Of a DNA stretch of 64,000 bases, positions 41,573 to 62,300 are shown one piece after another (position 1 is the first letter of the stretch; every line of letters begins with the position of its first letter). The position numbers were made by a program, and so were the translations under genes. The notes beneath the pieces were generated by a model. The model was not told where the DNA came from and made no database searches. It saw only the letters and a list, made by a program, of their open reading frames with translations. Source of the stretch: Ceratodon purpureus (Eukaryota; Streptophyta; Bryopsida; Pseudoditrichales; Ditrichaceae); NCBI GenBank assembly GCA_014871385.1, contig CM026424.1:9153566-9217565 (forward strand). Reading direction: 5' to 3'.

Positions 41573-43949
41573 CTAGACTGTCTCGTAGGGCTCCGCCAAG
41601 GGGTGTGTCAAGATTCCACTCTCGAGGAGTAACTTCACTTCGTTGAAGCTAAAGGTCGGTGCATGGATGAAAAGTTCCACATCCGGGTCACGCAGGCATA
41701 CCTTTAAGAGGACGTAATACATATGCTTGCAGTATGTAAATTGAACCCTCCCACGGAACTTCGTCATTGTTTTCTTGAATGCTGGGCATGTGCAGCCGGG
41801 GAGGGAGCTGATGGTGATCTGGTATTTCGTCACATTGGGAGGAGCACCGGAGTCTAGCGCGATGATGCAGCCGTGGCCGGGATGAGGAATCATGGTGATA
41901 GACCGTAGTCGTGCTTTGAGGGAGTCGGAGGAGGCCATGGACAGCCTCTGCTGCGGATTAGGACGAGTCGCAGTCCGCTTGACAATCTTCCCGTCTCTCT
42001 TTCCAGGGTACCGGTCAGCCTCTGCCGGCACCGGAACCGAGTCTAGGTTTCGCGGAGGGGGGTCGGAGGTGAAGAGCCTCCTAGGCGAGACTGGTTTCTT
42101 CTGTGGGAGCTGAAACCCTGCCTCCTCCAAGGCAAGAATCTCACAGTCTTTCAGGTTCGTCCCAAGTTTCACAGGCCATACTGTTGGGATGGGTGGAAAT
42201 CCTTCCTTTCTCGATAAATCGTACCAGTTCACCCATTTGCGCCTTGTCCCCTTCACGCACCTCTCAATGTCGTCGGGGCAGAAAAAGAAGTCCTCGGTTA
42301 TGTCGAGGTTCCTCCTTCTGCTGTGCCATACACCGCTATAGGTCGGGGCAGGGGTGGGCTTAGCACCCCTGACAATCCTCTCTGTGCATTTCTTATTGGT
42401 GACGGCCCTCTGCGCCCAACAGCACTTTGCGGAAGTCTTTGGCAGTCGAGCAATGTGCCACTGCTTCACGTTCACTCTGGTCTCCTCCACAGCCGAGACG
42501 TGACGCACGCCTCCTTCGCTGAAGGGTGAAGCGATGACGGAATCCATCTGTGGCGATGGATGATGAGCAGCTTCAACCTCGCGGTCGCCTTCCTCGACGA
42601 TGACCGGCATGGGAGCCACGCAAGCTCTGACAGGTCTGGTACTGACTCGAGGATGCGAGAAGTTTACCTTATCTGGCCTATGCGACTCTTCCTCAGCGCC
42701 AAGAGGCAAGTCGGGCTTGCGTTTCCGCGAACCAAACACCTCCTCCCCTGGCAGATGTGGGACACGCGTACAAAACTCATCGGCGCCAGGCATGTCCAGC
42801 ATGGGGTCCTCCAAAACCTTTGGATCGCCCGTTTTCTTCGCCCTACGTTCTGCGGATCGTAGCCTCAGCTCCTTCTTGCTCGGGCCAGTACCCCCCACGT
42901 CGCCCTTTAGGTACTGGTAGTAATTCACAACCTGTAGAAAAGCACGGATAAAGTCGTCGACGGTGGCGACGTACAGATCACTGCCATTATTCCCGGATGC
43001 TTGAAGCCACTTGTTGTGAACCGTCTCCGCGAGGTTGCAGGACGGCATCTCCGCGAGTTCCGCCTCCGAGAATTTCTGAGATCCAACAACGGATGAACGA
43101 TTAATGAGTCACTACGATGAGCATGTACGGGGAAAGAGAAAACAACAGTGGGTGGCGTGGTTACCTCGGTCATGAACCCACCCCATTGGCGATATCGATA
43201 ATGCCAGAATGAGAGCCATAAGTCAAGTTTCGATAAGGCAGATTCGGACACTGCCCCCGCAGATGCCCACCAAGCCCTTATCCCGTGATAAAGAGCATCG
43301 GCCTCCGCCATTGATCTTGCCTTCCTGTATTGCTGACACATCTTTTTGTGTTGATCCCACAACTCTTCGGCGACGTATTTCTCGGTATGATTCACCATCG
43401 ACTGGGTCCAATGAAATTGACAGGTCCTCTCCCGGTCCTCCATTTGATCTTCCTTGTTGCCATTGCCGTATACCACCCGGACCGCATTCCAATTAGCCTG
43501 GGCGCTGTCCGCCATGAATCCCTTGAAGTTCGGCTTCTCCACGCCGTGTCTCTTCATGACTGCGTTGAGGTTCTTCCAGAACACCATCTGGGCTTCGGCG
43601 TCTTCAGATTGCATGTCGCAGCAGGCGATCGTCATGACCCGGCAGTACGTGGAGTCATACACGTGGCATGCCATGGTTGTCCAATTTCGCACGCGCTTGA
43701 CGTGGTCAAACATCATCCACGAAAGCTCCAGATCCCCCGTCGGCTGCATTCTCTTCACAAGATCGACACCACTCGCGGGCCCAATCTCGGACATTTTGAA
43801 CACGTAGACCTTGTCAAATTCTGACCCTTGGCCAGGGAACATGTTGTTCTGTACGAAATCCCATGTGCTGAGTCCCCGCAGCTTCGTTATGCTGTCCATC
43901 ACCCCGAAACGTCTGAGGTACCTAAAAGTAACGACCTTGTTCCGAATGT
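41573..43949 (-). CDS. MULE transposase/SWIM protein, 3' part of a gene split by the Ty3 element
   Basis: The gene resumes at 43949 after the insertion. The rest of exon 1 runs to 43165, an 89-bp GT-AG intron spans 43164-43076, and exon 2 runs from 43075 to the stop at 41573. Counted with the 5' part (56852-58232) the product is about 1,222 residues, and no stop or frameshift was seen. Features are a MULE-type catalytic region around residues 560-640 with NFKGFMADSA and CQFHW, a Lys/Arg-rich middle, and a C-terminal SWIM zinc finger (Cys1150, Cys1152, Cys1171, His1173, approximate). MULE plus SWIM is the layout of Mutator transposases and of the FAR1/FHY3 regulators derived from them. The decayed relative at 16960 shares the intron position. 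No terminal inverted repeats were found, so it could be an element gene or a domesticated one. As it stands the gene is interrupted. Confidence 0.85.
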
Positions 43950-43954
43950 TAGGC
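43950..43954. repeat. Target-site duplication TAGGC, left
   Basis: Five bases identical to 56852-56856 on the other side of the Ty3 element, as expected for Ty3 integrases. Confidence 0.95.
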
Positions 43955-45012
43955 TGTAGCACGACGTGGTATCAGTATTCCTCCGGAAGGCACTCAATTG
44001 ACACTAACTACCCTCCAAAGTAAACCACTCCGTGTTCGTTCCCACGAAGACCTATAGTTTTCTTTCTTTTAGACTTTAACGGAAATCACCACCAGTGTCC
44101 GACCGTACTCCGTCTTACAGACGGTTGGACGAATCCGGTAGTTTTTGCCTCGTTCCTATTTTCCGGCTTTTTAGACTAGTGGCCGGTTCCCACTGATCCG
44201 TCTATCCTTTAAAGTGGCTGGATTTTCCACCGTCCCGTAACTTATAGTGGCTGGACACCCCACTGTTCCTATCTACCACCCGAGAAGTGGAGTAATAATC
44301 CTTCCGTACGGCTAGGGACCGGTCCGGATAACTACTCAGTGCCGGTTACGGATACGGAAATCATACTACAATGACATCACCTTACGGCTGCGCAGTATTC
44401 TACTATACTATCTCCCTTCCGGATTGGTTCGCAGTAGGACATCCGGCTTTTATCCCATCTACAGGAAGCGACCGGTCCGTTTCCGGATCCCGGTGTACAC
44501 ACGGCTCTCCGTGTCCTTGAGACTACCAGCCCTGCTGCAATACGTCTCTCCTTCCCTACGGGCTCCTTCCGGGACTGGAAACCGTCAACACTCGACGCTT
44601 GACACCTCCCCAGTCTCTCCGGGCGCTCTCCTGACCTTCCTACTGTTCAACACTCCTCCGGAACACTACTGAAGACAATAGAACCACAAACCATACGGCA
44701 ACGGACCCGTCAGCAGCCGGTTGACACAACAAATCCAAAAGTATATTCTCAATTGCAACAACAAAACGGCGTACAAAAACAAGGCCCCGGCCTTGGAAAA
44801 ACGTCTATCTTAAATACTAAAACCTATCGGTTCCTAAAGCGACCAAGTGGCCCACCGAGATCCAGAAATTCCGGATCTTGGATCCGGAAATCCCGGACCG
44901 GTGGCCGCCTTCTATTCCTAGTTACTGCCACTATCTATCCGGATTGGCAGCCGGGTGCACTGGAGCCCCATCGTTAGTCGCTGCCATTTTATCCGGTCCT
45001 TATCCTAAAACC

Positions 45013-46881
45013 CTACTCCTTGTACTTATCGAGCCGGGGACTGTGCCGGGTTCCGTCCAACCGTTCCTTCTTCTGTACCCGCTTCAGTTTCTTCAACGGG
45101 GGGTCTTCTTCCGGAGCCGCAGATGCTGACGGCTCACTGGACTTCCGGGATCGTTCTGCTTGAGTTGCCGGGGATGGAGATCGTGCCGACACCGGAACTG
45201 CGCTGAGATCTACCTGGAGCGTTTCCGGAGATCCCTGTACCGGTATAAAATCTAACGGTGGTGGTCTCTGGTCCGGTTCCAAGGGAATGTTTCCGGGGTT
45301 AACAGTCTCGACTCCATCCAAGTTGGGTAGAGTGTGCAGACTGCTCAAGGTGTCCGGAATAGGATCCTCCAGCGGGTGTCCTATCTCCTGTTGGGCGGGC
45401 CGGATGGCCGACCGTATCGGAGAGGCTGGAGGTGGCACCGGTGCCGGTTCCCTGGTTGGGGACGGTGGTCTGGGATCCTCTTGATTTGCCGGTGGCCCTG
45501 ATGACGGACCGGCCTCTGCGTAACCGAGGATTTCCACCAGGTTCTTCATCATCATCCATGTGTCCCTCATCACCTGGGTCCGGTCGTGCATGAACTTTAT
45601 AATATTCTTCGTAGTCGGATCCGGTTGACGGGTCAGGAAAGCCTGGTAAACGGCGCACTGGTTGGCCACATCTACCGGAAGAGCTAAAGTGGCCTTGATC
45701 TCAGCGACCGACCGGATGGCCTCGACTGCCCGGTCACGGGCGTCATTGAAATCCTTCCGGGCATCACGCACCTCCTCCTCGAGCTTCCGATTCGTTTCCC
45801 GGAACTTCGCCAGCCGGTCCATGTGCTTCTCCTGGAGACCGGCCAAGTCCCGGTGCTTGCGAAGAATGCTCAGGCACTCCTCCAACTGGTCCGAACCCGT
45901 AAGGATCATTACCTCCCTAGCCAACCGGCCCTCCGCTTTCCTAGTCGACTGTAAGAACCGGGCATACGTCGTTGCCTGCTCCGATAGGTTAACTAAGTCC
46001 TGGTACGGATCTCCGGTGTGCTCCGGTGGTCCGGTGGGCTGTTGGATCTCCGTGTTCAGGGTTCGCTTGGCCGGTGCGGGAGTCCGAGGTGATCCGGATG
46101 GCTGTCCCTTTTCCGGGCTAGGACGGGGTCTCTTAGCCGGCGTGGGGGAGACCTCAATAACATCATCCTCGTCGTCCTGGTCGGACACTTCTTCCGGCTC
46201 AGCGAACTGCTGATAGCTTAAGAGCATATCGTACTCCCGGACCTCTTCAGCAGTCAACAGTCCCTTAGTACGGTAGAGGTGAATGAGGAAAGACGGAAGG
46301 CAGGTGGCCTGCTTCTTGGTCTTCCGGAGATTGGCCACCTGTCGGTCGACTATCGTCTTCATCATGACCCCCCAGTCCACCGTGAATTCACCGATCATGG
46401 CCCCAATGAAAACGGACGCCCACTTGTTGGTGATCCGTTTGGGCTTTTCCGGATGGAAAATAGGGTTCATAAACCCTACTACCCTCCGGGCCTCCGGATC
46501 CGCAATGTCATCCAGCCCCCATCCTTCTCTCGGGTCTCCGGTCCCCTTGAGATACTGATGTATGAAGTCCCGGGGCTCCGGCGTCGAGACCTCGCCGCCG
46601 GAGTTCTTGAAACCATACGTCTCCCTCCAGAGTTGTGCCGACCACTTATCCGGCTCTCCCCGGATGGTTCCTCGATTCTCAGGATTCTTGACGAGGATCT
46701 CCTGGGCCGGAAGGGCAAGCTTCCAACCCCATGCCTTGTCCAGTAGGACCTCACAACCCATAGACTCTAAGGCGGTCCGGAGGAGCTCCTTCTCCTTCTC
46801 TCCGGCCGGTATCAACGGCATTACCCGTTGTACCCTGAACGACTGTCCTTCCGCCGCCGGTTCCTTCCCTTTCCTACCCAT
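45013..46881 (-). CDS. LTR-encoded 622-residue protein (3' LTR copy)
   Basis: Function unknown. The frame is open from a GTG at 46923, but the first ATG is at 46881 (MGRKGKEP), which I take as the start. Residues about 85-220 are Trp- and hydrophobic-rich (PDKWSAQLWRETYGF, NKWASVFIGAMIGEF, PSFLIHLYRTKGLL) and resemble the 'putative plant transposon protein' domain found in extra ORFs of plant LTR elements; that match is from memory. An acidic stretch with DDVIEV (SUMO-interaction-like) is followed by a basic PAKRPRPS motif, a charged coiled coil at about 315-400, and a Pro/Ser-rich tail with the basic cluster PLKKLKRVQKKER. This suggests a nuclear scaffold-type protein. It lies about 200 nt downstream of a TATAAAAG box, on the same strand as gag-pol. 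In this 3' copy, transcription would have to start inside the LTR. Confidence 0.75.
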   Translation of the reverse strand: MGRKGKEPAAEGQSFRVQRVMPLIPAGEKEKELLRTALESMGCEVLLDKAWGWKLALPAQEILVKNPENRGTIRGEPDKWSAQLWRETYGFKNSGGEVSTPEPRDFIHQYLKGTGDPREGWGLDDIADPEARRVVGFMNPIFHPEKPKRITNKWASVFIGAMIGEFTVDWGVMMKTIVDRQVANLRKTKKQATCLPSFLIHLYRTKGLLTAEEVREYDMLLSYQQFAEPEEVSDQDDEDDVIEVSPTPAKRPRPSPEKGQPSGSPRTPAPAKRTLNTEIQQPTGPPEHTGDPYQDLVNLSEQATTYARFLQSTRKAEGRLAREVMILTGSDQLEECLSILRKHRDLAGLQEKHMDRLAKFRETNRKLEEEVRDARKDFNDARDRAVEAIRSVAEIKATLALPVDVANQCAVYQAFLTRQPDPTTKNIIKFMHDRTQVMRDTWMMMKNLVEILGYAEAGPSSGPPANQEDPRPPSPTREPAPVPPPASPIRSAIRPAQQEIGHPLEDPIPDTLSSLHTLPNLDGVETVNPGNIPLEPDQRPPPLDFIPVQGSPETLQVDLSAVPVSARSPSPATQAERSRKSSEPSASAAPEEDPPLKKLKRVQKKERLDGTRHSPRLDKYKE

Positions 46882-47082
46882 TCTGCTAAGTCCTCCTCTC
46901 CGTCCCTCCGGTAACACCTGCACGCACGATCCTCACCACAATCTCTCGCCTAACGGAAACACTTCCGTCTCACCGTCTCTCTCCTACCGTCTAACCCTAA
47001 CTGCGCCCACCGCCTTAGAGCGCAAGGACCCGTCGTGCCACAAAATGACAAAGAGAAAGGAAGAGCATGGCGGTCCTTCCTC

Positions 47083-47090
47083 CTTTTATA
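47083..47090 (-). promoter_or_regulatory. TATA box in 3' LTR
   Basis: TATAAAAG on the minus strand, about 200 nt upstream of the LTR ORF start. A second weaker TATAAG lies further upstream. The transcription start is inferred, not shown. Confidence 0.6.
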
Positions 47091-47470
47091 CCTGCCCTCG
47101 CGCCCACCCGTTCGTAGCTCATCATGACGGACGGTCGTAGCCCCTCATCATTGGACGGTCGCGACCGGCGGCGTTTTAATGGTTGCAGCCATTATCCCCG
47201 TGTGCGTTGTACCTTTTGGCGGTTATCCTTAAGTCTGCCGGGTCAGGGCTCTGTCATATGGACTGTGCCCGTCTCTCCTCCACCGCAGACGACCGGATCT
47301 CACCCGACTGGCCTTCCGGTCACTTATTTATTCAGCCGACCGGCTTAACCGGTTGTTTTACTTATAGGCTTAGTACTTCCGTATTTCTAACATAAAATTT
47401 TTAATTTTTTTATCATTTTCCTACCGGAATTAGTATTCCGGTGTGTCAACCGTGGAAATCACTTTCCACA

Positions 47471-47484
47471 TTACCCCTTTTTCA
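47471..47484 (-). other. Polypurine tract
   Basis: On the minus strand TGAAAAAGGGGTAA immediately precedes the 3' LTR. The pol stop codon (47482-47484) overlaps its start. Confidence 0.8.
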
Positions 47485-50400
47485 CCCGTGAGCGTCCTCG
47501 CGAACGTCATCCGGTCTGTACAGTTTGACCCGGGATCCATTCACCCTAGTATCCATTGGATATCCTTCTAGGTCTGAAAGTTGTAATGACCCATTGGAAT
47601 AAATCTTATCAACCCGGAACGGTCCCATCCAGCGAGTGTGTAACTTACCCGGGAAATTCTTGTACCGGCTGTCATAGACTAGAACCAATCCTCCTTCTTC
47701 GATTCCTTTATCCGTTGTGATTCGCTTGTCATACACTTCCTTCCTTTTGGCTTGGACCTCCCTTGTCCGTTCCAATGCCTCCATCCGGTCTTCCTCCATC
47801 CGGTCGATGACCTGTAGACGGTCGTCGAGTGCATCCGTTTTATCTCCGTGGTTGGCTGCGAGTACCCTCAACGTCTCTACTTCCGTCTCGATGGACTGAA
47901 GTACCTCCTGTCCGTATACCAGATAATACGGAGTCCGTCCGGTTGTACTCTTGTGTGCCGTGTTGTACGCGTAGACCGCCGATGTCAGTTTCCGGTCCCA
48001 GTCCGTCTTATGTGAGGTCACCACCTTGGTCAGAATCTTACAGATTATTCCGTTGGCACGTTCCGTCAATCCGTTCGCCTTAGGATTGTACGGTGTGGTC
48101 TTCCGGTGTTTGACCTCGTACTGGTTGGTCAGACCGGCCACCACTTCGTTCAGGAAATGTGTTCCCCGGTCGCTCACTATCTCCAACGGATGGCCAAATC
48201 GCATCATTATCCTTTCGAATATGAACCGGGCGGATGTCTCGGCATCATTCTTCCGGGTGGCTCTGGCTTCTACCCACTTCGTGGCGTAGTCCGTCGCCAA
48301 AATGATGTACCGGTGCCTCTGAGTGCCTACCAGTTGAATTGGTCCAATAAAATCCACTCCCCATTTTTCAAATGGTGCTAGTGGAACAATGGGAGTTAAC
48401 GGCCAGTGATGCCGTACGGCCGGAGCTCCTATCCGTTGGCAGGGATCGCATTCTTTTATAAATTGATGAACATCCCGGTGAAGGTGTGGCCACCAGTATC
48501 CGGCCTCGCGGATCTTCTGTACGGTGATGACGGATGCATAGTGTCCTCCGGCCGGTCCATCATGCAAAGCCCGGATGACCTTCCGGCGATAGATGGGTTC
48601 TAGGCAGCGTCGGAGTTTTTCATCCGCCCCTAGTTTGAAAAGCAATTCTCCGACGAGGAAGTACGGTGCCACCCGGTGCTGAAACACACTCTTCTCCTCC
48701 CTACTCAGTCCTTCCGGATACCTCTGAGTCTGGAGATAGTTCTTAATCCGCTGAAGATCCTGGTCCTCCCCTTCGTCTTCCTGAATTCGGTAGACGGAAG
48801 ACGTACCTCCTCCGACCGGAAGGTCGCGGGGGTCCGGTATATCCTGTATACTGGTACCAACCGGGTATTCTTCCGGGAATTCATCCGGAAACTCTGAAGA
48901 TATCTCCTCCTTGCTCTCCTTCCCCCGTTGTCGCGACAAATAATCTGCATTGAGGTTAGACTTCCCGGATTTGACAATAACTTCGTAGTTGAACTCCTGA
49001 AGAAGTAATATCCACCGGGCCAACCTTCCGGACAGATCCGGTTTGTTGACTAGATACTTCAGCGAGTCATGATCCGTATGGAAGATGACTTTGTACCCCA
49101 ATAGGTAATGGCGAAATTTCTTGCACGCATAAATGACGGCTAGAGCCTCCCGTTCGGTTGTCGTGTAATTCTTCTCGGCCGGATTCATCTGCCGGCTGGC
49201 ATAATAGATGGGTCGTTCCCGGCCCTCATCATCCAATTGCCATAGGATAGCTCCCACACACCAACCGGATGCATCCAAAGTGACATGAAAAGATTTCGAC
49301 CAATCCGGTGGGGCTAGTATAGGGGCTGTGACCAACCGTCTCTTCAGTTCTTCAAAAGCCTGTTGACGGATTTCCGTCCAGAGGTACTCTTCTTCCTTCT
49401 TGAGCAGCTCCGTTAGTGGCATTGCCAACCGGGCATAATTCTCAATGAACCTCCGGTAGTATCCCACACACCCCAGAAATCCTCTGAGTTCCCGGAGGTT
49501 GGTGGGGGCAAGAAGGGCCAACATGACTATTACTTTTGCTACATCCACTGCTATTCCCTTCCGGCTGACTATGTGTCCGAGCAATAGTCCGGCTAACATA
49601 CCGAAAAAACACTTGCCCGGATGGAGCTTGAGTTTAGTCTCCCGGCATCGCTGGAACGTTTTCCGGAGATAGTCCAGATGTTCCACCCACCGGCTGAACA
49701 CCGCAAAGTCGTCAATGAAAACTTCCAGGAAATGTTTTAAGAAATCCTGAAATATGTCCATCATCAACCGTTGAAACGTTCCGGGAGCATTGCACAATCC
49801 GAAAGGCATCCGGTTGAAAGCGTAGGTACCCCAATCGGTGGTAAAAGTAGTTTTCAGTTGGTCCTCCTTCCGGATGGACACCTGATTGTATCCGGAAAAC
49901 CCATCTAGAAAACTGAAGCATTCCTGACCGGCCACGTGATCGAGCACCATGTCGATGAAGGGTAAAGGGAAATGATCCTTCTTCGTGGCTGCATTCAGCT
50001 TCCGGAAATCCTGACATACCCGGATCTTGACTTTACCATCCGGACCCGTTTTCTTTGGTACTACTACAATCGGTGACACCCACTCGGAGTTATTCACCGG
50101 ATAAATAAAACCGGCTTCCAGCAGTTTATCTAGTTCCTCCTTCACCATCATGGAGTACTTTGGGTTGAGTCGGTACTGCCTTTGGCGAACCGGAACCGCT
50201 CCCTCCATTAGGTCGATGTGATGTTCGCCCAATTCCGGCGGTATACCCACCAGATCCGATGGAAGCCAGGCGAAGACGTCATCATATTCCGTAAGCAATT
50301 CCAAATACTGTGCCCGCTCCCGGTCCGTCAGTCCTTTTCCCAAATAGAAAGTCCTACCGGTTTCCGTCTTCACTGCTTCGTAATCTTCCGGTGCTACCAC

Positions 50401-51675
50401 ATTCTTGACCGGTTCGCTAGCATCCGTTTCTACGGACCCCGGAAGGGCTGACCAGGGTAAGTCACTGGTCCTTGACCCGGATATCCCTGTTTTGATTATC
50501 CCATCTGCAAACTGTCCTTTAATCCATTCGGAGGTCAACGGAACGCTTGCTTCTCCTAGGGCCCGGTCATCGTCCTTCCTGCCTTCCGGTGGTCGGTTCG
50601 GTACTTCGGTTCCATCCGGCTTCTGTTCAGGTACCGGGTTACGGAATCCCAGATCTTCTTCTGATACCTCCCGGAATTCTTGTACATGATATGACTGCAG
50701 GGAATCCGAGTTTTCTGAACTTGTCCAATCGGAAGTGTAACCATCCGTCACACTTGTTTCCCCCAGATGGAGCTCCGGTTTCCACGATAGCAAAACAGCC
50801 GGATCCCCGAAAGTAAAAGCCTTCTTCGCCCAATTTACCTTGACTCCGGCTAGATATAGCCACGGTCGTCCGAGTAACAGTGGAAACGGATTTCCTTCCT
50901 CCACCCGGATAACCAAATAGTTGAGCGGGTAAGTGAGTCCGGAAATCTTTGTCGGTACTGCCGACAGTTTTCCCACTGGTACAACTCGAGACTGGTCTGC
51001 CATCCGTAGTGTCTGATTGGTAGGCTCAAAGACAGTGTACCCTAAATCATTGGCCGTACTCTCCAGTAGTAGATTTACTCCGGATCCTCCATCTACCGGT
51101 ACCTTCTGGATAAGGCATCCGTCGATCTCCACAGCTATTTCCGGAGCCCCGAAATCCTCCATCTCGGCGAAATTAACTGCGACGGAAGGCAGCTTAATCT
51201 TCCGTTTACGGGTCCGGATTAAGCCGGACTTAACCTGCTTCTGATAATTAGGATTATCATGTAACAGTTGTCCTATGGTGACATTGGCCGGCTGGGCCTG
51301 AATATCCTGGAGGATGATGTACCTGTCGGCTTTCGCCCGGACCTCCGGTTGGATAATTTCCGGAATCTCGCTGAATGTCACCTTCCGGCCCTCCTGTACT
51401 TGAGGTAACCCAGCAATTACCTCCGGTCCAATATCCGGCATAGTTGGTAGGGTCTTGACCCCTTTTTCAACCGGGACCGTCTCCGGGGGCACCTCCTTCT
51501 CTGATTCCCCGGAAGTTTCTGAAGATTCCGGTCGGCTACTCTCTTTCCTCTGTGACCTGGTCCGAACACCAGATTTCCTCTTCTTCTTTTCTGAATCCTG
51601 TCTCCGGGTGGAACTACGCGAACTGACCTGATGGATATCCACGCCGGTCTCTCCTCGTGGTTCCACCGGTAACCG
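47482..51675 (-). CDS. pol: Pol polyprotein: protease, reverse transcriptase, RNase H, integrase
   Basis: The frame begins directly after the gag UGA and has no ATG for about 80 codons, so it is probably made by readthrough of gag. Domains in order: a basic/acidic linker; aspartic protease with DGGSG as active-site motif and LLLGRPWL near its end; reverse transcriptase with DFRKLN, FLDGFSGYNQ, MPFGLCNAP and FIDDF (F instead of Y in YxDD); RNase H with TLDASGW, TEREALAVIYA and HTDHDSLKYL; integrase with a HHCC finger (H...GGH ... CDPCQRIG), the catalytic region VDFIGPI, SDRGTHF and NPKANGLTER; and a C-terminal WMGPF-type domain without chromodomain. About 1,394 codons and no internal stop, so it should be functional. 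The stop overlaps the polypurine tract. It would act in the virus-like particle (RT, RNase H) and in the nucleus (integrase). Confidence 0.95.
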   Translation of the reverse strand, partial: RLPVEPRGETGVDIHQVSSRSSTRRQDSEKKKRKSGVRTRSQRKESSRPESSETSGESEKEVPPETVPVEKGVKTLPTMPDIGPEVIAGLPQVQEGRKVTFSEIPEIIQPEVRAKADRYIILQDIQAQPANVTIGQLLHDNPNYQKQVKSGLIRTRKRKIKLPSVAVNFAEMEDFGAPEIAVEIDGCLIQKVPVDGGSGVNLLLESTANDLGYTVFEPTNQTLRMADQSRVVPVGKLSAVPTKISGLTYPLNYLVIRVEEGNPFPLLLGRPWLYLAGVKVNWAKKAFTFGDPAVLLSWKPELHLGETSVTDGYTSDWTSSENSDSLQSYHVQEFREVSEEDLGFRNPVPEQKPDGTEVPNRPPEGRKDDDRALGEASVPLTSEWIKGQFADGIIKTGISGSRTSDLPWSALPGSVETDASEPVKNVVAPEDYEAVKTETGRTFYLGKGLTDRERAQYLELLTEYDDVFAWLPSDLVGIPPELGEHHIDLMEGAVPVRQRQYRLNPKYSMMVKEELDKLLEAGFIYPVNNSEWVSPIVVVPKKTGPDGKVKIRVCQDFRKLNAATKKDHFPLPFIDMVLDHVAGQECFSFLDGFSGYNQVSIRKEDQLKTTFTTDWGTYAFNRMPFGLCNAPGTFQRLMMDIFQDFLKHFLEVFIDDFAVFSRWVEHLDYLRKTFQRCRETKLKLHPGKCFFGMLAGLLLGHIVSRKGIAVDVAKVIVMLALLAPTNLRELRGFLGCVGYYRRFIENYARLAMPLTELLKKEEEYLWTEIRQQAFEELKRRLVTAPILAPPDWSKSFHVTLDASGWCVGAILWQLDDEGRERPIYYASRQMNPAEKNYTTTEREALAVIYACKKFRHYLLGYKVIFHTDHDSLKYLVNKPDLSGRLARWILLLQEFNYEVIVKSGKSNLNADYLSRQRGKESKEEISSEFPDEFPEEYPVGTSIQDIPDPRDLPVGGGTSSVYRIQEDEGEDQDLQRIKNYLQTQRYPEGLSREEKSVFQHRVAPYFLVGELLFKLGADEKLRRCLEPIYRRKVIRALHDGPAGGHYASVITVQKIREAGYWWPHLHRDVHQFIKECDPCQRIGAPAVRHHWPLTPIVPLAPFEKWGVDFIGPIQLVGTQRHRYIILATDYATKWVEARATRKNDAETSARFIFERIMMRFGHPLEIVSDRGTHFLNEVVAGLTNQYEVKHRKTTPYNPKANGLTERANGIICKILTKVVTSHKTDWDRKLTSAVYAYNTAHKSTTGRTPYYLVYGQEVLQSIETEVETLRVLAANHGDKTDALDDRLQVIDRMEEDRMEALERTREVQAKRKEVYDKRITTDKGIEEGGLVLVYDSRYKNFPGKLHTRWMGPFRVDKIYSNGSLQLSDLEGYPMDTRVNGSRVKLYRPDDVREDAHG

Positions 51676-51678
51676 TCA
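51670..51678 (-). promoter_or_regulatory. Probable stop-codon readthrough site between gag and pol
   Basis: Minus strand reads UGA CGG UUA with gag and pol in the same frame. UGA followed by CGG is a known leaky context, used for example by tobra- and furoviruses. A CCGGU...ACCGG stem is possible starting 6 nt after the UGA. The alternative is a recent CGA-to-UGA nonsense mutation in a formerly single gag-pol ORF. Confidence 0.6.
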
Positions 51679-53241
51679 ATTTGGCGGATTCTCTACCCCG
51701 TCTTTGTGACCGTAGTTGAGCCTGGTACGCTCCCGGGGAGGTTCTTCCACTTGCTTATAGATAGCCCTAGGTCTAACCGGTTGTTGGCATTGGGGTGACT
51801 TATGGCCGTACTGACCACAGTTTTGACACGGAAGTTCCAACGGTGCGCCTTGACCTCCTCGGTGTGGACAATTGTTAGCATAATGACCGGCTTCTCCACA
51901 AATATAACAGCATCCAAACTGCCGTTCCACCGAGACGGGTGGTCGTGCCGGCGGGGCCGGATGTCCACCGGATGGATAGCCCATTCCGGGTCGCGGTCTG
52001 ATAACCGGCTGCATCATCCGTCCACGGCCATAGGCCGGGTTTACCTGGTAAACCGGTAGCATCTCCACTTCCTCCTCTTCATAAGCAGGTTCCGCAAAGA
52101 ATACTGACCCCTCTTCATCCACAAACTGCACTCTCTTGGGCGCTCCGTGTGGGCATTCCCGGTTGTAATGTCCCGGCTTTCCGCAGTTGGTGCACCACAC
52201 ATTGTTCCGGACGGTGGGCAGCGCTTTCCGTGCTTTCTTCTCTTCCGCCATCTGGACTTTGAGTTCTTCAATGCTGTTCACCAGATCTTTGATCATCCGT
52301 TTCTCCGATGGGTATTCCTCCTTTACTCGGACTATCGTCCGTTCTTTGTCCTTCCGGTAGCCCTTGCTACCTGACGCCTTCCGTCGTGAGCGGTCCTCCT
52401 CACTGCTGCTGCTTCCGGTTTCCGAGCTATCTTCGGAGCTGGATCCACTGGATTCTGAACTTGAATCCCGGCTCCTCCGGACCTTTCGGAGACGTCTAGA
52501 GGTTTTCCCTGCCTTACGGTACTGTCGTATGGACTGCTTGGAGTTTTCATAGTTCTGGGCGGCCTCCATGGCCTCCGGTAAAGTCTGTGGCCGGGTCTGC
52601 CTTACTTGGAACCCTATCCGGTCGGGTAACCGAGCGACGTACCATTCTACCTGGATACTGTTTGCAATTCCGGGACTTAGTTTATGAATTAAACTCCTAA
52701 CCCTCTGTCCGTACCGGCGGACCGACTCTTCCGGCTCCATCCGGATTTTACTAAGTTTTCCCAATGTGCGGGCTTCTCCTCCTACCTCCCGGAAGGCCCT
52801 CCGGAAGGCATCGGATAGCAAACCCCAACTCCTTCGCACATTGTCCGGTTCCTCTTGGTACCACTGGAGTGCCTCCTTCTTGAGTAATCCCTGGAACAAC
52901 CGTAACTTGATTGCTTCGTCCTCTTGATTGGCAGCAGCCGTGGCGTTGAACTCGCTTAGCCATTCGTCCACGTCCTCCCGGCCATCGCCCCTGAACTTCC
53001 GATACTTCAGCCTGGAGAACGTCCAGGCCATAGGAAGACCCGCTACCGGTCCCCCGGTCACCGGCCCGGGTGGTACTGTCCCACCCTGACCTCCGGATCC
53101 GGAAGTCCCGGCTATCTCTTGATCTGTATCTTCAATGACTTCTGCTCTAGTAGTGACGAATGGTCTGGCTTCCGTCTCCTGATCACCCTTCTTCTTTCTA
53201 CTAGACCTCCGTACTCCTTCCGGCTCAGAATTCGGATTCAT
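51676..53241 (-). CDS. gag: Gag (capsid and nucleocapsid) protein
   Basis: 521 residues from an ATG about 95 nt inside the 5' LTR border. After a basic N terminus (RRSSRKKKGDQ), residues about 75-230 form a retrotransposon gag capsid region (SRLKYRKFRGDGREDVDEWLSEF; ALQWYQ). A Ser/Glu/Arg-rich linker follows, then three CCHC zinc knuckles: CTNCGKPGHYNREC, CYICGEAGHYANNC and CQNCGQYGHKSPQC. Most plant Ty3 elements have one or two knuckles. It ends in UGA directly in frame with pol. It assembles the particle and packages the RNA. Confidence 0.93.
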   Translation of the reverse strand: MNPNSEPEGVRRSSRKKKGDQETEARPFVTTRAEVIEDTDQEIAGTSGSGGQGGTVPPGPVTGGPVAGLPMAWTFSRLKYRKFRGDGREDVDEWLSEFNATAAANQEDEAIKLRLFQGLLKKEALQWYQEEPDNVRRSWGLLSDAFRRAFREVGGEARTLGKLSKIRMEPEESVRRYGQRVRSLIHKLSPGIANSIQVEWYVARLPDRIGFQVRQTRPQTLPEAMEAAQNYENSKQSIRQYRKAGKTSRRLRKVRRSRDSSSESSGSSSEDSSETGSSSSEEDRSRRKASGSKGYRKDKERTIVRVKEEYPSEKRMIKDLVNSIEELKVQMAEEKKARKALPTVRNNVWCTNCGKPGHYNRECPHGAPKRVQFVDEEGSVFFAEPAYEEEEVEMLPVYQVNPAYGRGRMMQPVIRPRPGMGYPSGGHPAPPARPPVSVERQFGCCYICGEAGHYANNCPHRGGQGAPLELPCQNCGQYGHKSPQCQQPVRPRAIYKQVEEPPRERTRLNYGHKDGVENPPN

Positions 53242-53308
53242 GCGTTTTCTACACCCTGACTTGGGTTAGTGACAACCGTAGAAATCCGGAGAAAGAAAAT
53301 CATATAGA

Positions 53309-53326
53309 TCCCCGGCAGCGGCGCCA
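53309..53326 (-). other. Primer-binding site, tRNA-Asp type
   Basis: Minus strand TGGCGCCGCTGCCGGGGA, nine bases from the 5' LTR end. It complements the 3' end of plant tRNA-Asp with one mismatch. tRNA-Asp priming is typical of Athila-type elements. Confidence 0.8.
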
Positions 53327-54393
53327 AAAATCACATGTAGCACGACGTGGTATCAGTATTCCTCCGGAAGGCACTCAATTGACACTAACTACCCTCCAAA
53401 GTAAACCACTCCGTGTTCGTTCCCACGAAGACCTATAGTTTTCTTTCTTTTAGACTTTAACGGAAATCACCACCAGTGTCCGACCGTACTCCGTCTTACA
53501 GACGGTTGGACGAATCCGGTAGTTTTTGCCTCGTTCCTATTTTCCGGCTTTTTAGACTAGTGGCCGGTTCCCACTGATCCGTCTATCCTTTAAAGTGGCT
53601 GGATTTTCCACCGTCCCGTAACTTATAGTGGCTGGACACCCCACTGTTCCTATCTACCACCCGAGAAGTGGAGTAATAATCCTTCCGTACGGCTAGGGAC
53701 CGGTCCGGATAACTACTCAGTGCCGGTTACGGATACGGAAATCATACTACAATGACATCACCTTACGGCTGCGCAGTATTCTACTATACTATCTCCCTTC
53801 CGGATTGGTTCGCAGTAGGACATCCGGCTTTTATCCCATCTACAGGAAGCGACCGGTCCGTTTCCGGATCCCGGTGTACACACGGCTCTCCGTGTCCTTG
53901 AGACTACCAGCCCTGCTGCAATACGTCTCTCCTTCCCTACGGGCTCCTTCCGGGACTGGAAACCGTCAACACTCGACGCTTGACACCTCCCCAGTCTCTC
54001 CGGGCGCTCTCCTGACCTTCCTACTGTTCAACACTCCTCCGGAACACTACTGAAGACAATAGAACCACAAACCATACGGCAACGGACCCGTCAGCAGCCG
54101 GTTGACACAACAAATCCAAAAGTATATTCTCAATTGCAACAACAAAACGGCGTACAAAAACAAGGCCCCGGCCTTGGAAAAACGTCTATCTTAAATACTA
54201 AAACCTATCGGTTCCTAAAGCGACCAAGTGGCCCACCGAGATCCAGAAATTCCGGATCTTGGATCCGGAAATCCCGGACCGGTGGCCGCCTTCTATTCCT
54301 AGTTACTGCCACTATCTATCCGGATTGGCAGCCGGGTGCACTGGAGCCCCATCGTTAGTCGCTGCCATTTTATCCGGTCCTTATCCTAAAACC

Positions 54394-56262
54394 CTACTCC
54401 TTGTACTTATCGAGCCGGGGACTGTGCCGGGTTCCGTCCAACCGTTCCTTCTTCTGTACCCGCTTCAGTTTCTTCAACGGGGGGTCTTCTTCCGGAGCCG
54501 CAGATGCTGACGGCTCACTGGACTTCCGGGATCGTTCTGCTTGAGTTGCCGGGGATGGAGATCGTGCCGACACCGGAACTGCGCTGAGATCCACCTGGAG
54601 CGTTTCCGGAGATCCCTGTACCGGTATAAAATCTAACGGTGGTGGTCTCTGGTCCGGTTCCAAGGGAATGTTTCCGGGGTTAACAGTCTCGACTCCATCC
54701 AAGTTGGGTAGAGTGTGCAGACTGCTCAAGGTGTCCGGAATAGGATCCTCCAGCGGGTGTCCTATCTCCTGTTGGGCGGGCCGGATGGCCGACCGTATCG
54801 GAGAGGCTGGAGGTGGCACCGGTGCCGGTTCCCTGGTTGGGGACGGTGGTCTGGGATCCTCTTGATTTGCCGGTGGCCCTGATGACGGACCGGCCTCTGC
54901 GTAACCGAGGATTTCCACCAGGTTCTTCATCATCATCCATGTGTCCCTCATCACCTGGGTCCGGTCGTGCATGAACTTTATAATATTCTTCGTAGTCGGA
55001 TCCGGTTGACGGGTCAGGAAAGCCTGGTAAACGGCGCACTGGTTGGCCACATCTACCGGAAGAGCTAAAGTGGCCTTGATCTCAGCGACCGACCGGATGG
55101 CCTCGACTGCCCGGTCACGGGCGTCATTGAAATCCTTCCGGGCATCACGCACCTCCTCCTCGAGCTTCCGATTCGTTTCCCGGAACTTCGCCAGCCGGTC
55201 CATGTGCTTCTCCTGGAGACCGGCCAAGTCCCGGTGCTTGCGAAGAATGCTCAGGCACTCCTCCAACTGGTCCGAACCCGTAAGGATCATTACCTCCCTA
55301 GCCAACCGGCCCTCCGCTTTCCTAGTCGACTGTAAGAACCGGGCATACGTCGTTGCCTGCTCCGATAGGTTAACTAAGTCCTGGTACGGATCTCCGGTGT
55401 GCTCCGGTGGTCCGGTGGGCTGTTGGATCTCCGTGTTCAGGGTTCGCTTGGCCGGTGCGGAAGTCCGAGGTGATCCGGATGGCTGTCCCTTTTCCGGGCT
55501 AGGACGGGGTCTCTTAGCCGGCGTGGGGGAGACCTCAATAACATCATCCTCGTCGTCCTGGTCGGACACTTCTTCCGGCTCAGCGAACTGCTGATAGCTT
55601 AAGAGCATATCGTACTCCCGGACCTCTTCAGCAGTCAACAGTCCCTTAGTACGGTAGAGGTGAATGAGGAAAGACGGAAGGCAGGTGGCCTGCTTCTTGG
55701 TCTTCCGGAGATTGGCCACCTGTCGGTCGACTATCGTCTTCATCATGACCCCCCAGTCCACCGTGAATTCACCGATCATGGCCCCAATGAAAACGGACGC
55801 CCACTTGTTGGTGATCCGTTTGGGCTTTTCCGGATGGAAAATAGGGTTCATAAACCCTACTACCCTCCGGGCCTCCGGATCCGCAATGTCATCCAGCCCC
55901 CATCCTTCTCTCGGGTCTCCGGTCCCCTTGAGATACTGATGTATGAAGTCCCGGGGCTCCGGCGTCGAGACCTCGCCGCCGGAGTTCTTGAAACCATACG
56001 TCTCCCTCCAGAGTTGTGCCGACCACTTATCCGGCTCTCCCCGGATGGTTCCTCGATTCTCAGGATTCTTGACGAGGATCTCCTGGGCCGGAAGGGCAAG
56101 CTTCCAACCCCATGCCTTGTCCAGTAGGACCTCACAACCCATAGACTCTAAGGCGGTCCGGAGGAGCTCCTTCTCCTTCTCTCCGGCCGGTATCAACGGC
56201 ATTACCCGTTGTACCCTGAACGACTGTCCTTCCGCCGCCGGTTCCTTCCCTTTCCTACCCAT
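54394..56262 (-). CDS. LTR-encoded 622-residue protein (5' LTR copy)
   Basis: Identical to the 3' LTR copy except for one Pro-to-Ser change near residue 268. This copy is the one a full-length transcript would include. With the TATA box at 56464-56471 the RNA should start near 56440, so this is the first ORF, followed by the PBS, gag and pol. Gag translation would then need internal initiation, a spliced or second RNA, or a promoter further down. Some Tat/Ogre-type elements carry an extra ORF upstream of gag, but between the LTR and gag rather than within the LTR. Confidence 0.75.
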   Translation of the reverse strand: MGRKGKEPAAEGQSFRVQRVMPLIPAGEKEKELLRTALESMGCEVLLDKAWGWKLALPAQEILVKNPENRGTIRGEPDKWSAQLWRETYGFKNSGGEVSTPEPRDFIHQYLKGTGDPREGWGLDDIADPEARRVVGFMNPIFHPEKPKRITNKWASVFIGAMIGEFTVDWGVMMKTIVDRQVANLRKTKKQATCLPSFLIHLYRTKGLLTAEEVREYDMLLSYQQFAEPEEVSDQDDEDDVIEVSPTPAKRPRPSPEKGQPSGSPRTSAPAKRTLNTEIQQPTGPPEHTGDPYQDLVNLSEQATTYARFLQSTRKAEGRLAREVMILTGSDQLEECLSILRKHRDLAGLQEKHMDRLAKFRETNRKLEEEVRDARKDFNDARDRAVEAIRSVAEIKATLALPVDVANQCAVYQAFLTRQPDPTTKNIIKFMHDRTQVMRDTWMMMKNLVEILGYAEAGPSSGPPANQEDPRPPSPTREPAPVPPPASPIRSAIRPAQQEIGHPLEDPIPDTLSSLHTLPNLDGVETVNPGNIPLEPDQRPPPLDFIPVQGSPETLQVDLSAVPVSARSPSPATQAERSRKSSEPSASAAPEEDPPLKKLKRVQKKERLDGTRHSPRLDKYKE

Positions 56263-56463
56263 TCTGCTAAGTCCTCCTCTCCGTCCCTCCGGTAACACCT
56301 GCACGCACGATCCTCACCACAATCTCTCGCCTAACGGAAACACTTCCGTCTCACCGTCTCTCTCCTACCGTCTAACCCTAACTGCGCCCACCGCCTTAGA
56401 GCGCAAGGACCCGTCGTGCCACAAAATGACAAAGAGAAAGGAAGAGCATGGCGGTCCTTCCTC

Positions 56464-56471
56464 CTTTTATA
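56464..56471 (-). promoter_or_regulatory. TATA box in 5' LTR
   Basis: TATAAAAG on the minus strand, about 200 nt upstream of the LTR ORF. It is the best candidate core promoter of the element, placing U3 at roughly the first 400 bp of the LTR. Confidence 0.65.
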
Positions 56472-56851
56472 CCTGCCCTCGCGCCCACCCGTTCGTAGCT
56501 CATCATGACGGACGGTCGTAGCCCCTCATCATTGGACGGTCGCGACCGGCGGCGTTTTAATGGTTGCAGCCATTATCCCCGTGTGCGTTGTACCTTTTGG
56601 CGGTTATCCTTAAGTCTGCCGGGTCAGGGCTCTGTCATATGGACTGTGCCCGTCTCTCCTCCACCGCAGACGACCGGATCTCACCCGACTGGCCTTCCGG
56701 TCACTTATTTATTCAGCCGACCGGCTTAACCGGTTGTTTTACTTATAGGCTTAGTACTTCCGTATTTCTAACATAAAATTTTTAATTTTTTTATCATTTT
56801 CCTACCGGAATTAGTATTCCGGTGTGTCAACCGTGGAAATCACTTTCCACA

Positions 56852-56856
56852 TAGGC
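56852..56856. repeat. Target-site duplication TAGGC, right
   Basis: Identical to 43950-43954. Confidence 0.95.
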
Positions 56857-58232
56857 GACGCCATATCCTTGCACCTATCGAGCACCGGGTAAAGCTCTTG
56901 AACGGTGAGCGTCTTCGGTGGATCATCCTCCGATCGTAATAAAAAACTACCAATCAGGTCCTTGCTGGCCTCTAGTACAACGGCGCTCTTCGTAGCCTTG
57001 GGCGTGTTCTCGATCTGATTTTCTATCAAACTACTTATCTCGACCTTAATGTCACGGTAGTCTCCCACCTTGACAGGGTGGGTGTGGGATCCTACGTGGA
57101 TGCACGCCCGTGTCCTATTGCCCTTGCCCGAAACATAAAATATCCTTGCTCTACAAGTGGCAACGCATACGGGAGGTTCCTTACATACCTTGCAGACCAA
57201 AGTGGATTCCTTCGGAGCCTCTTCACCCACAACAAACGCCTGCAACGTGCATCCATCGAATTCGGTCTCATTCACGTCGAAGATGCGATGGTCGCGCTCA
57301 AGGTACCCGCAGTCCTTGTTCTCGCACCGCAAATGGCCCGCACATGAAGACGACCGGAAAGAGAGGCCCATATTGTTGGAGATGTTGGTGGTGATCGTCT
57401 TCGTCCACACGTGCCCATCGTACCTCTTATCCATGCCCTGCATGGACTTGGCGGCTGATCGTGAGGCAGAGGATCCCACAGGTGGCAGTTCAAAGATGAC
57501 GTCGCCGTTGAACTCCGCCGGCAGATACTCCACTCTCTCATGTCGGATGGAGTCGTAGTCTAACTTCTTCAGGAGGTTCTTCTTACCCGGCCGCGCAGTA
57601 AGCTTCTTCAACAGCGATACAATACTGACGGACTCGTCCAAAGAAGGGGGCATTGCCATGAGATCCGAAGCGCGAGTGTCCACAGCCGCCTCGGGACGGA
57701 CAGGTTCTCTGGCGGGTAAATCTCCGGATGACTTTCGAGTCCGCGGGCTCCCGTCATTGTCAGAGGAGAGATTGATAACCGGGGTATCTAATCCCGGCTC
57801 AACTTTTACTTTGGCAAGGAGAGGCGTCGTTGAGCCAGAGTCGGTCTTCAACTTCACGTCCACCGCTCCTGGTGTCTGGATGGTGCAAGTAGAGGACCGT
57901 CTGGGGGTCAGGATCTCGGTGGACGCAGCCATCTGGGAATCCGTGAGACCGTAGACTCTAAACCTACCAGGCGTGAGCCTCCACATCTTACAATCCCTCT
58001 CGTCCACAAATGAGACCTGGCCTAGTGTATGTGTGATCTCTCCAGTGAGCTCATCACAGATCTCCTCCTCAACGCTAATGGAGTCCTCTTGATACTGGAA
58101 CCTAAGACTAAGACGCTGACATGACACAAGAGCGTACCCATCATCATCTACCCGAAACGTAAGCGGAATTCCAACGCCATGTGCGTAAAGAAAAACGGAA
58201 CCTTGGAACTGAGCCGGGACAGGTAGCGCCAT
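56852..58232 (-). CDS. MULE transposase/SWIM protein, 5' part (residues 1-460)
   Basis: Starts at ATG 58232 (MALPVPAQ), 80 nt below a TATA box. It is open until the Ty3 insertion, which adds 12 codons of LTR sequence before a stop. Across the insertion the frame resumes in register at 43949. Visible features are an N-terminal beta-rich region (1-100), a disordered segment with a sumoylation-like VKVEPG and a SUMO-interaction-like PVINLSSDND (about 140-160), then two Cys/His clusters (C297, H300, C303, C308; C347, C350, C356, C360) that look like zinc-binding DNA contact modules. This N-terminal region is absent from the decayed copy at 16960. A truncated protein of this part might still be made. 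Confidence 0.85.
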
Positions 58233-58310
58233 GGCGTAGACAGATCAGAAAGAGCGACACAATCGACGAAGTGCAGAATTGAGAGGGTTGTTGCAGCATT
58301 TTCCACTGCA

Positions 58311-59315: not shown

Positions 59316-62300
59316 ATGTTTAACCCTAAGTATGGAGGGAAGTTGAAGAAGAGTAGGTCTAAGAAGGGCCATGGGGAGGAGAGGTCGTCCGGGACTGAGA
59401 AGTCACCGGGAAGTGAGAAGAAGGGTACAAAGAAGAGGGCTGGAGATGAGAGGTCATCAGAAAGTGAGAGGAAAAGTAAGAAGCGGCCAAGTAGGGAGGA
59501 GCGTCCAGAAAAGCACAAGAAGTCTAAGAAGGTTAGAATTGCGGAGTCCGCTGTCCAGCGAGAGCAGGTAAGATAGTACTCCCAGAAGTAAGGGCGGGAA
59601 AGGGTATTAGGGCATCGTCAGAGCGTCCAGTTCCACTGTATGTATCTAGGGTTTTAGAAAGGGTTCAACTCAGCTGACTACTTAGGTTGCGACACATTGT
59701 TGCAGGAAGAAGGAGAGGAGGAGGCGCAGGAGACGGCTGTGGAGGAGACGCAGGGGACAGCTGTGGAGGAGACGCAGAAGGCGGCCGTAGAAGAGACGGC
59801 GTTCGTGGCTGCTGGGCACAGGCAAGGAGGGGAGGGGCAGGACGAGAGCATGGACCTGCAGGCGACAGAGCAGTCTGGACGGGAGGAACTGGCAGGCGAT
59901 GTCAACAAGGAGACGGCGATGGCCGAGGGCCAGAACGATGGTGCGGAGCATACAATGGAGAGTACACCTTCACCGAAGAGGGCGAAGACAGCCGAGGTGG
60001 AGGCGGAAGAGAAAGATCCCTTGATGGATGAAGTAGAGGAAGAGGGGGACGATGCAGAGACGCCGCCGGCTAAGCTGACATGGCCACGGGTAAAGAAGGG
60101 GGAGGAATTGCCGGAGAACCCTCTAGGAAAGGACGAGGGTGTGACACCAGCGGAGATAGAGGCTCGGATGATCAAGGAGTTCGAGAACGATACCTTTGTT
60201 GCAGTCAACCGGAGTCGGAAACAGCCGATAGAGAAGTTCTCGAGGTTGAGAATTCCTTTATGCCGCATGGTTAGTATGCCCGAAGTCAGGCCAGTGCTGG
60301 AGTCTGAGGTCTTACGGTTGCAGAGCGAGTTCCGGTCCGGGTACAGAGTAGGGTCAGCAGTGTTCTATGTGGCTCTGACCGATTCGAATCAGAGGGAGAA
60401 GCTTGTTACAGATGAAATCAGACGGGAATGGAGTTCGGAATGGGATCAGTTGGATAATGAATTCGACCATGAATTGAATTCTGACCCGGATTTGAAGCCA
60501 CTTCAAGGAAAGATGTTTTTCATTTACGATGGCAATCACCGCTACACGGCCTGGAAGCGCTACATCGATGAAGCGAAGATGGGAAACATGGAGTGGCATC
60601 GCCTTCACGGAATGCCTGATTGCTTGGTCCTTGAGATCCCTAAGATTCTTTACCCAAGTATTCTCAGGGCCATGCATTCAGTAAACAAGTAAGTACCATT
60701 CCGAGGCTAGATCTTTAAGTTTTTACTCCATGCTTGGTCGTCGATTTCATTGGATTAAGTTCGTGATATCTAATATCATACCACCTGACAGGTCAAATGA
60801 GCAGGCGCATGTGAGGACAAATGTCTTGCACCAGATCGAGATGGTGCACAAGTATGGGCTGCTACCCATAACGTATTTTGAGAATATCCTCAGCAAGGAA
60901 GAGTACCTGAAGGAGAAGGCAAAGACGACCAATACTTGGTATCCATTGTCTTCAGAGACAATGGTGAACCACCTCTTCTCGGTAAATCCCTTAAATGTTT
61001 TTACTCCTGCCTGTTTTATAGATTGTGTCGAAATAATTAAAAAAACTAACTTTCTTGGTTTAATGCGGCAGGAAGAGATAGCAGGTGCAGGCGAGGAAGC
61101 GTGCAATCACTACAAGCAGACGACGCCGCTGAACAAGCAAACAGGGGAGCGTTTACGTGAGGTTATATTCAATCAGATTCTGAAGAAAAAAGAAGCCCTG
61201 AACAAGCTTTTTAGCAAGCTCCAAGCCGTTGCAAATCCTAAGAACGGGAAGGGCTTTATTGAAGAGGTATGTAGATTCTAGACTTTTTTTACTTAATGAG
61301 TTTGTTTTTCCTTATTGAGGCCCGGTTGAGGCCCTGGCTTAGGTCAGGTTTGGCAACGGGAAGCCCCTCCCAGCCTCATGGGCGCGGTCGGGAAACCGGC
61401 CCCAAGGGGCCTTATTGGGCCCCTCTCAGCCCAAGAGGGGCCCGATAAGGCCCCTTGGGGCCGGTATCCCGACCGCGCCCATGAGGCTTGCAGGGGTCTC
61501 TCGGCACCGAGAGACCCCTCCCGGCCTCACCAGCGCGGTCAAGATACCGGCCCCAAGGGGCCTTATTGGGCCCCTCTCGGGCGGAGAGGGGCCCAATAAG
61601 GCCCCTTGGGGCCGGTTCCCCGACCGCGCCCATGAGGCCGGGAGGGGTCTCTCGGTGCCGAGAGACCCCTCCCGGCCTCATGGGCGCGGTCGAGATACCG
61701 GCCCCAAGGGGCCTTATCGGGCCCCTCTTGGGCTGAGAGGGGCCCAATAAGGCCCCTTGGGGCCGGTTTCCCGACCGCGCCCATGAGGCCCGGAGGGGCT
61801 TCTCGGTGCCGAGAGACCCTTCCCGGCCTCATGGGCGCGGTCGGGTTTTCGGCTCCAAGGGGCCTTTTTGAGCCCCTCTCAGCCACTGAGAGGCCTCTTT
61901 AGGCCCCTTGGAGCCGGAAACCCGACCGCGCCCATGAGGCCCGGAGGGGCTTCTCGGTACCGAGAGACCCTTCCCGGCCTCATGGGCGCGGTCGGGTTTC
62001 CGGCTCCAAGGGGCCTTTTTGAGCTCCTCTCAGCCACTGAGAGGCCTCTTTAGGCCCCTTGGAGCCGGAAACCCGACCGCGCCCATGAGGCCCGGAGGGG
62101 CTTCTCGGTGCCGAGAGACCCTTCCCGGCCTCAAGGGCGCGGTCGGGTTTTCGGCCCGAACGAGCCTTAACGGGCCCCTTAGAGCCCAAAGGGGGGCTGA
62201 AAGAGCCCACCAGGCAGATAAAGAACCCATTTATAGGGTTCTTTATGCGTGATGGGCCATTTCGTCCCCTTTTACAATAAAAGGGACCCAGATTCTGCCC

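Follow-up and report, generated by a model that had tools for sequence, protein, structure and literature searches.

The window, i.e., the whole 64,000-nucleotide stretch of DNA that was analysed, contains on its minus strand (43955-56851) a Ty3/gypsy element with all of its parts, the positions of which are listed in Table 1. The limits that the earlier note had claimed for this element, based upon two LTRs of 3,516 bp, a target-site duplication (TAGGC), a primer-binding site and a polypurine tract, were all found; read along the minus strand, the LTRs start with TGTGG and end with CTACA. The primer-binding site is one that we take to resemble, with a difference, the 3' end of plant tRNA-Asp. 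When the element and one copy of TAGGC were removed in silico, the site became spanned by one open frame, 805 codons long from stop to stop, and due to this restored frame and the presence of TAGGC at both ends, the insertion is real and recent. At approximately 1e-8 substitutions per site per year, the two differences between the LTRs mean that the age of the element is tens of thousands of years. The interrupted 805-codon frame (42925-43954 and 56857-58244, minus strand) is transposase-like by eye and has no Pfam match above the cut-off, and an ORF beside it (41573-43108) shows a sub-threshold Pfam match to SWIM (E 0.053). Similar DNA (69%) is also found at 17193-17503, and a similar-looking ORF is present at 18103-18912.

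Table 1. Positions within the window of the parts of the Ty3/gypsy element and of the sequences noted in its LTRs.
Feature	Position	Strand	Remarks
Target-site duplication TAGGC, left	43950..43954	.	
3' LTR	43955..47470	-	3,516 bp; differs from the 5' LTR at 2 sites
ORF622, 3' LTR	45013..46881	-	ATG to stop
Polypurine tract AAAAAGGGG(TAA)	47471..47482	-	adjoins the 3' LTR
pol	47482..51675	-	RT, RNase H, integrase; continues the frame of gag past its TGA
gag	51676..53241	-	Ty3_capsid, Retrotrans_gag, zinc knuckles (Pfam)
Primer-binding site TGGCGCCGCTGCCGGGG	53310..53326	-	
5' LTR	53336..56851	-	3,516 bp
T-richest 60 nt of LTR, with AATATA	54104..54163	-	possible 3'-end signal of ORF622 mRNA (putative function)
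ORF622, 5' LTR	54394..56262	-	ATG to stop; LTR positions 590-2458
TATAAAAG	56464..56471 (copy 47083-47090)	-	LTR position 381; putative promoter function
Two imperfect 23-bp direct repeats and CCAAT	56493..56542 (copy 47112-47161)	-	just upstream of TATA; putative function
Target-site duplication TAGGC, right	56852..56856	.	

The Pfam matches in pol occur in the order RT, RNase H and integrase, which places the element within Ty3/gypsy (Metaviridae), and the best solved relative is Ty3 Gag-Pol (E 4e-93). The chromodomain by which chromoviruses are recognized was not found after the integrase among the Pfam matches of pol at E values up to 1. Similarly, a second RNase H (aRH), as expected for the Tat/Ogre/Retand elements, was not found, Pfam indicating one RNase H region (pol residues 763-892). 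The TAGGC duplication also does not fit the NCGN preference that is reported for Phygy in the accessible portion of a survey of plant LTR elements (PMC6317226).

The gag and pol frames are both open and they share one frame, in which they are separated by a single TGA that is followed by CGG (51673-51678, minus strand). A TGA in the context of CGG is a read-through signal of some plant viruses, and stop-codon read-through at this position is probable. The internal region consists nearly entirely of gag-pol, with 94 nt preceding gag and the stop codon of pol touching the polypurine tract, and hence spare room in this element is present only in the LTR.

This room is occupied by a long ORF. As the earlier note had claimed, an uninterrupted ORF of 622 codons (referred to here as ORF622) is present in both LTRs, in the sense of gag-pol and downstream of TATAAAAG. 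Two codons distinguish its copies, one through a silent change (GTA/GTG at 557) and the other through P268S. However, as both copies result from one reverse transcription of one RNA, the open state of ORF622 in the two LTRs constitutes a single observation, which is silent on selection. When the LTR was shuffled 500 times under a Markov-1 model, the longest ORF starting with ATG that arose by chance was of 266 aa (mean 127), versus the 622 codons observed. The RSCU values of the ORF622 frame show a correlation of 0.79 with those of gag-pol, a value that does not exceed 0.56 in any of the five alternative frames. No similarity of ORF622 to gag or pol was detected by blastp (best E 2.4), and its descent from either of them was therefore rejected.

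The accessible text of a review (PMC7264820) places the extra ORFs of plant LTR elements in the internal region, in agreement with the statement of the earlier note that those of Tat/Ogre elements are situated between LTR and gag. The survey cited above names eORF domains and records LTRs that reach about 5 kb in length, and the same portion of it makes no mention of an ORF in an LTR (PMC6317226). In the open-licence PMC literature, exact phrases looked for in titles and the starts of abstracts yielded no report of a plant ORF inside an LTR. The closest plant counterparts, as described in parts of three sources (PMC7264820, PMC6317226, PMC11963269), are the accessory ORFs of Ogre, Retand (TRP28), Athila (ORF-1) and Grande (gene23), which like ORF622 have no assigned role and belong to Ty3 elements other than chromoviruses; of these, gene23 is nuclear and TRP28 is predicted to bind DNA. 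Unlike ORF622, these plant aORFs/eORFs are located in the internal region, and none of three domains named for them is found in ORF622 by Pfam. The rice elements Retrosat2, RIRE3 and RIRE8 share with the present element their Ty3 affiliation, an LTR length of at least about 3 kb and an additional ORF (ORF0) preceding gag-pol, but in the accessible description this ORF is placed upstream of the gag-pol ORF, with no mention of a position inside the LTR (PMC3485330).

The sequences surrounding ORF622 within the LTR resemble those of a transcription unit. The putative TATA box, TATAAAAG, is situated 209 nt upstream of the ORF622 ATG, and the two 23-bp repeats that precede it show 81% matches, with the CCAAT at LTR position 317. 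If transcription begins, as expected, about 30 nt after the TATA, the leader would correspond to LTR positions 412-589, which contain no ATG. The suggestion in the earlier note that ORF622 would be the first ORF of the RNA thus holds for an RNA that begins at the predicted start (about LTR 412); with a start located further upstream than expected, the ATG at LTR 403 would come first. The ORF622 ATG itself has A at -3 and G at +4. Downstream of the ORF, the T-richest stretch of the LTR (positions 2689-2748) contains 52% T, as compared to an LTR mean of 20%, and it includes AATATA at position 2724. Promoter-like, coding and terminator-like sequences all fit within one LTR.

Between the stop codon of ORF622 and gag there are 1,152 nt containing nine ATGs, each of which opens a frame of at most 21 codons, and the translation of gag from the same RNA would therefore require splicing, reinitiation or a second promoter. 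CTAAC and CAG are present directly before the gag ATG, with the CAG 14 nt upstream of it. Splicing that would join the leader to an acceptor ahead of gag is not claimed here, as the pyrimidine tract and the donor sites (scored by site weights) are weak. A stable RNA fold in U5 was also rejected (z 0.34), with 130 of 200 shuffled sequences folding equally well. By eye, three successive GTGG...CCACT inverted repeats are seen in the final portion of the LTR (53525-53705, minus strand), the fold of which is not better than that of shuffled sequences.

The protein encoded by ORF622 has a mass of 70 kDa and a pI of 6.2. A single-sequence structural model (mean pLDDT 66.8, pTM 0.33) predicts a central helical region, the longest helix of which extends over roughly residues 331-399 (block pLDDT values of 86-92 for residues 355-384), and this helix probably forms a coiled coil; a single-sequence model of the N-terminal residues 1-236 is unusable (pLDDT 40.6). 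The protein contains proline-rich stretches and also basic clusters, including KRPR (250-253) and KKLKRVQKK (597-605), which may be nuclear signals. No Pfam family matches the whole protein above the cut-off, the match to DUF7900 (E 0.013) overlying the helix, and the matches of two sub-pieces are likewise all below it (Terminase_6C 0.25, DUF7900 0.011, TTC3 0.085, Cullin_binding 0.12). The plant-transposon-protein domain that had been proposed for this protein is absent from its Pfam matches at E values up to 10, where a very remote kinship could escape the search since the filters of HMMER remove most matches whose E value exceeds about 0.1. Other candidates, viz. PMD (PF10536), Transposase_28 (PF04195) and Athila ORF-1 (PF03078), were also not listed by Pfam, and internal protein repeats of the kind reported for the variable regions of VANC proteins were not detected at E values up to 1. 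No relatives of ORF622 were found in collections of viral contigs and prokaryote genomes, which is weak evidence as these are not plant genomes; a piece of pol from the RT region likewise had none in the viral contigs, a collection of the same limitation.

In addition to ORF622, the element is distinguished by its richness in the tetramer CCGG, which extends over both its coding and non-coding parts and is newly noted here. CCGG occurs about 23 times per kb in the element versus 2.5 in the flanks. Based upon one LTR plus the internal region, the element contains 217 copies in 9.4 kb (85 in the LTR and 132 in the internal region), whereas the flanks contain 130 in 51.1 kb; of the 2-kb bins that lie entirely in the flanks, none exceeds 21 copies, the count of the bin at 60-62 kb, part of which is a tandem array. 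Exact dinucleotide shuffles gave 27.8 copies for the LTR and 38.4 for the internal region, and the observed count was reached by none of 300 shuffles in either case. Among the 16 four-base palindromes, CCGG is 3.06 times its dinucleotide expectation in the LTR and 3.46 times in the internal region, the next-highest in the element being GTAC (2.24, internal); CCGG is also mildly raised in the left and right flanks (1.76 and 1.27 times, respectively).

This excess goes beyond what the encoded proteins and their codon counts account for. When these two were held fixed and synonymous codons were shuffled, CCGG ranked first of 256 tetramers in all three ORFs of the element (z 6.9, 4.7, and 10.6), whereas its best rank among eight further ORFs from the window was 7 (z -1.2 to 2.2); these ORFs are shorter (269-491 codons), include two that overlap, and are not all proven genes. 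For ORF622 the observed count is 52 versus 27.8 after this shuffle. The non-coding parts of the LTR behave similarly, with 24 copies after ORF622 versus 6.7 in shuffled sequences (reached by 0/300) and 9 before it versus 3.6 (reached by 1/300). Since the excess is present in coding and non-coding sequences alike, it points to a CCGG-favouring process that acts on the DNA or RNA of the element, whatever this encodes. The codon choice of the element leans to CCG and CGG, and in a Markov model which retains the counts of these trimers the LTR has 85 CCGG versus 70.3 expected (z 3.7) and gag 36 versus 33.2 (z 1.1). The enrichment hence concerns the CCG/CGG trimers together with CCGG, and the excess of the latter is much smaller once the trimers are fixed. 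CpG decay elsewhere was rejected as its cause, as CpG in the element is at 0.94-0.96 of expectation and TG/CA are not raised (0.84-0.94). The spacing of CCGG is irregular (CV 0.78-0.91), and no period stood out when regular spacing was looked for with no null model. Titles and abstract starts in the open-licence PMC literature revealed no report of CCGG-rich retrotransposons.

The ORF within the LTR is a real and unusual feature. We see about an even chance that it represents an accessory gene, housed in the LTR, whose product is a nuclear regulator, which is the preferred reading. This reading builds upon the ORF, the layout of the sequences around it, the near-identity of its two copies and its codon usage, all of them from one element. 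According to it, Pol II would start at the LTR promoter formed by the CCAAT, the 23-bp repeats and the TATA-like sequence, and produce a 5' leader of about 180 nt followed by ORF622 as the first ORF. Transcription could then stop at the T-rich/AATATA stretch about 230 nt past the ORF622 stop codon, which would yield a short mRNA and the 70-kDa protein, or it could read through this stretch into gag-pol and produce the full RNA. The protein, with its predicted coiled coil, would probably be a nuclear and probably oligomeric regulator of the element, for which transcription, silencing or the handling of cDNA/RNA are candidate roles. If the layout is used in this manner, R would be about 2.3 kb in length and hold the whole gene. 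Because the gene is located between promoter and terminator inside the repeat, each full element would have two copies of it and each solo LTR one complete unit, from which the protein might act in trans.

Alternatively, genomic RNA could begin downstream of ORF622, within the last 750 nt of the LTR, where TATA-like sequences are found at LTR positions 3017, 3064, 3225, and 3258 and a CCAAT at 3044. ORF622 would then be part of U3, behind pol, and be expressed from the 3' LTR by means of splicing or an LTR promoter, and it would no longer be in the gag leader. A precedent is provided by MMTV, where the U3 of the LTR holds the Sag ORF and a U3 promoter (P2) is used in B cells, according to the accessible part of PMC9412291. 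MMTV Sag/Naf resembles ORF622 in being a protein-coding ORF within an LTR that has a promoter, but this betaretrovirus is an animal retrovirus with its ORF in U3, whereas in the present element the best TATA is upstream and the ORF would be in R/U5. However, none of the downstream sequences is a full TATAAAA box like that at 381 with repeats and CCAAT upstream of it, and we regard a start there, and with it expression in the manner of Sag, as unlikely.

A regulator gene proper to the element has also to be weighed against the capture into the LTR of a coding sequence from the host or another element, which would be a dispensable passenger. ORF622 is seen in one element and is no relative of gag or pol, and gene capture by LTR elements is described in the accessible text of PMC7264820. 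However, its CCGG excess and codon usage are those of the element, which suggests a long evolution together and, for the CCGG excess, speaks against recent capture, and it is placed neatly between the promoter-like and terminator-like signals. A passenger origin is accordingly given a low probability.

A special case of the preferred reading, in which the LTR carries a regulator gene, is that ORF622 encodes a sequence-specific anti-silencing protein which binds the CCGG of the element. By analogy, it would resemble the VANC proteins of VANDAL MULEs, where an element-encoded regulator is likewise associated with a short word highly enriched in the element (PMC5735166, accessible part), as CCGG is here relative to its surroundings. 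The first rank of CCGG in the ORFs of the element and its excess in the non-coding LTR would be consistent with such binding, and a palindromic word would suit a dimeric DNA-binding protein, for which the predicted long helix of ORF622 could serve. However, VANDAL MULEs are DNA transposons for which binding has been shown, whereas ORF622 is known from its sequence, and the VANC motifs as described there are mainly non-coding, in one orientation and often in tandem (PMC5735166), in contrast to CCGG, which is palindromic, irregularly spaced and as dense in coding sequence. Additionally, TCCGGA is absent from U3 and the leader, and CCGG is mildly raised (1.76 times) in the left flank too. The binding of CCGG by ORF622 is hence very doubtful. 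That each LTR is a self-contained effector unit, with a putative CCGG-recognising regulator, and that the element, through its solo LTRs, leaves behind trans-acting helper genes for the family, we consider highly improbable.

The significance of a gene within the LTR concerns the fate of such elements. Accessory ORFs located between the LTRs are deleted upon solo-LTR formation, whereas a gene inside the LTR is doubled whenever the element inserts and would outlast the process by which elements are usually lost. A solo LTR would then be an expressible gene and more than a promoter. The CCGG excess, as it exceeds codon choice and among the ORFs of the window does so only in those of the element, provides a testable handle on what is recognised by the element or its protein.

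Elsewhere in the window, LRR genes and a match to EDR2_C (E 1e-76) indicate that the host is probably a plant. An inverted repeat of 1,118 bp (11837-12954 and 15842-16959) has arms that are 99.9% identical, each of which contains a tRNA-like sequence (Rfam tRNA, 40.3 bits) with an anticodon that is Gly-GCC-like by eye; ARAGORN listed no tRNA for this sequence in the arms. The tandem array at 61364-62179 is built from a 151-bp unit, present in 5.4 copies, in which self-complementary stretches as well as GGCC and CCGG occur.
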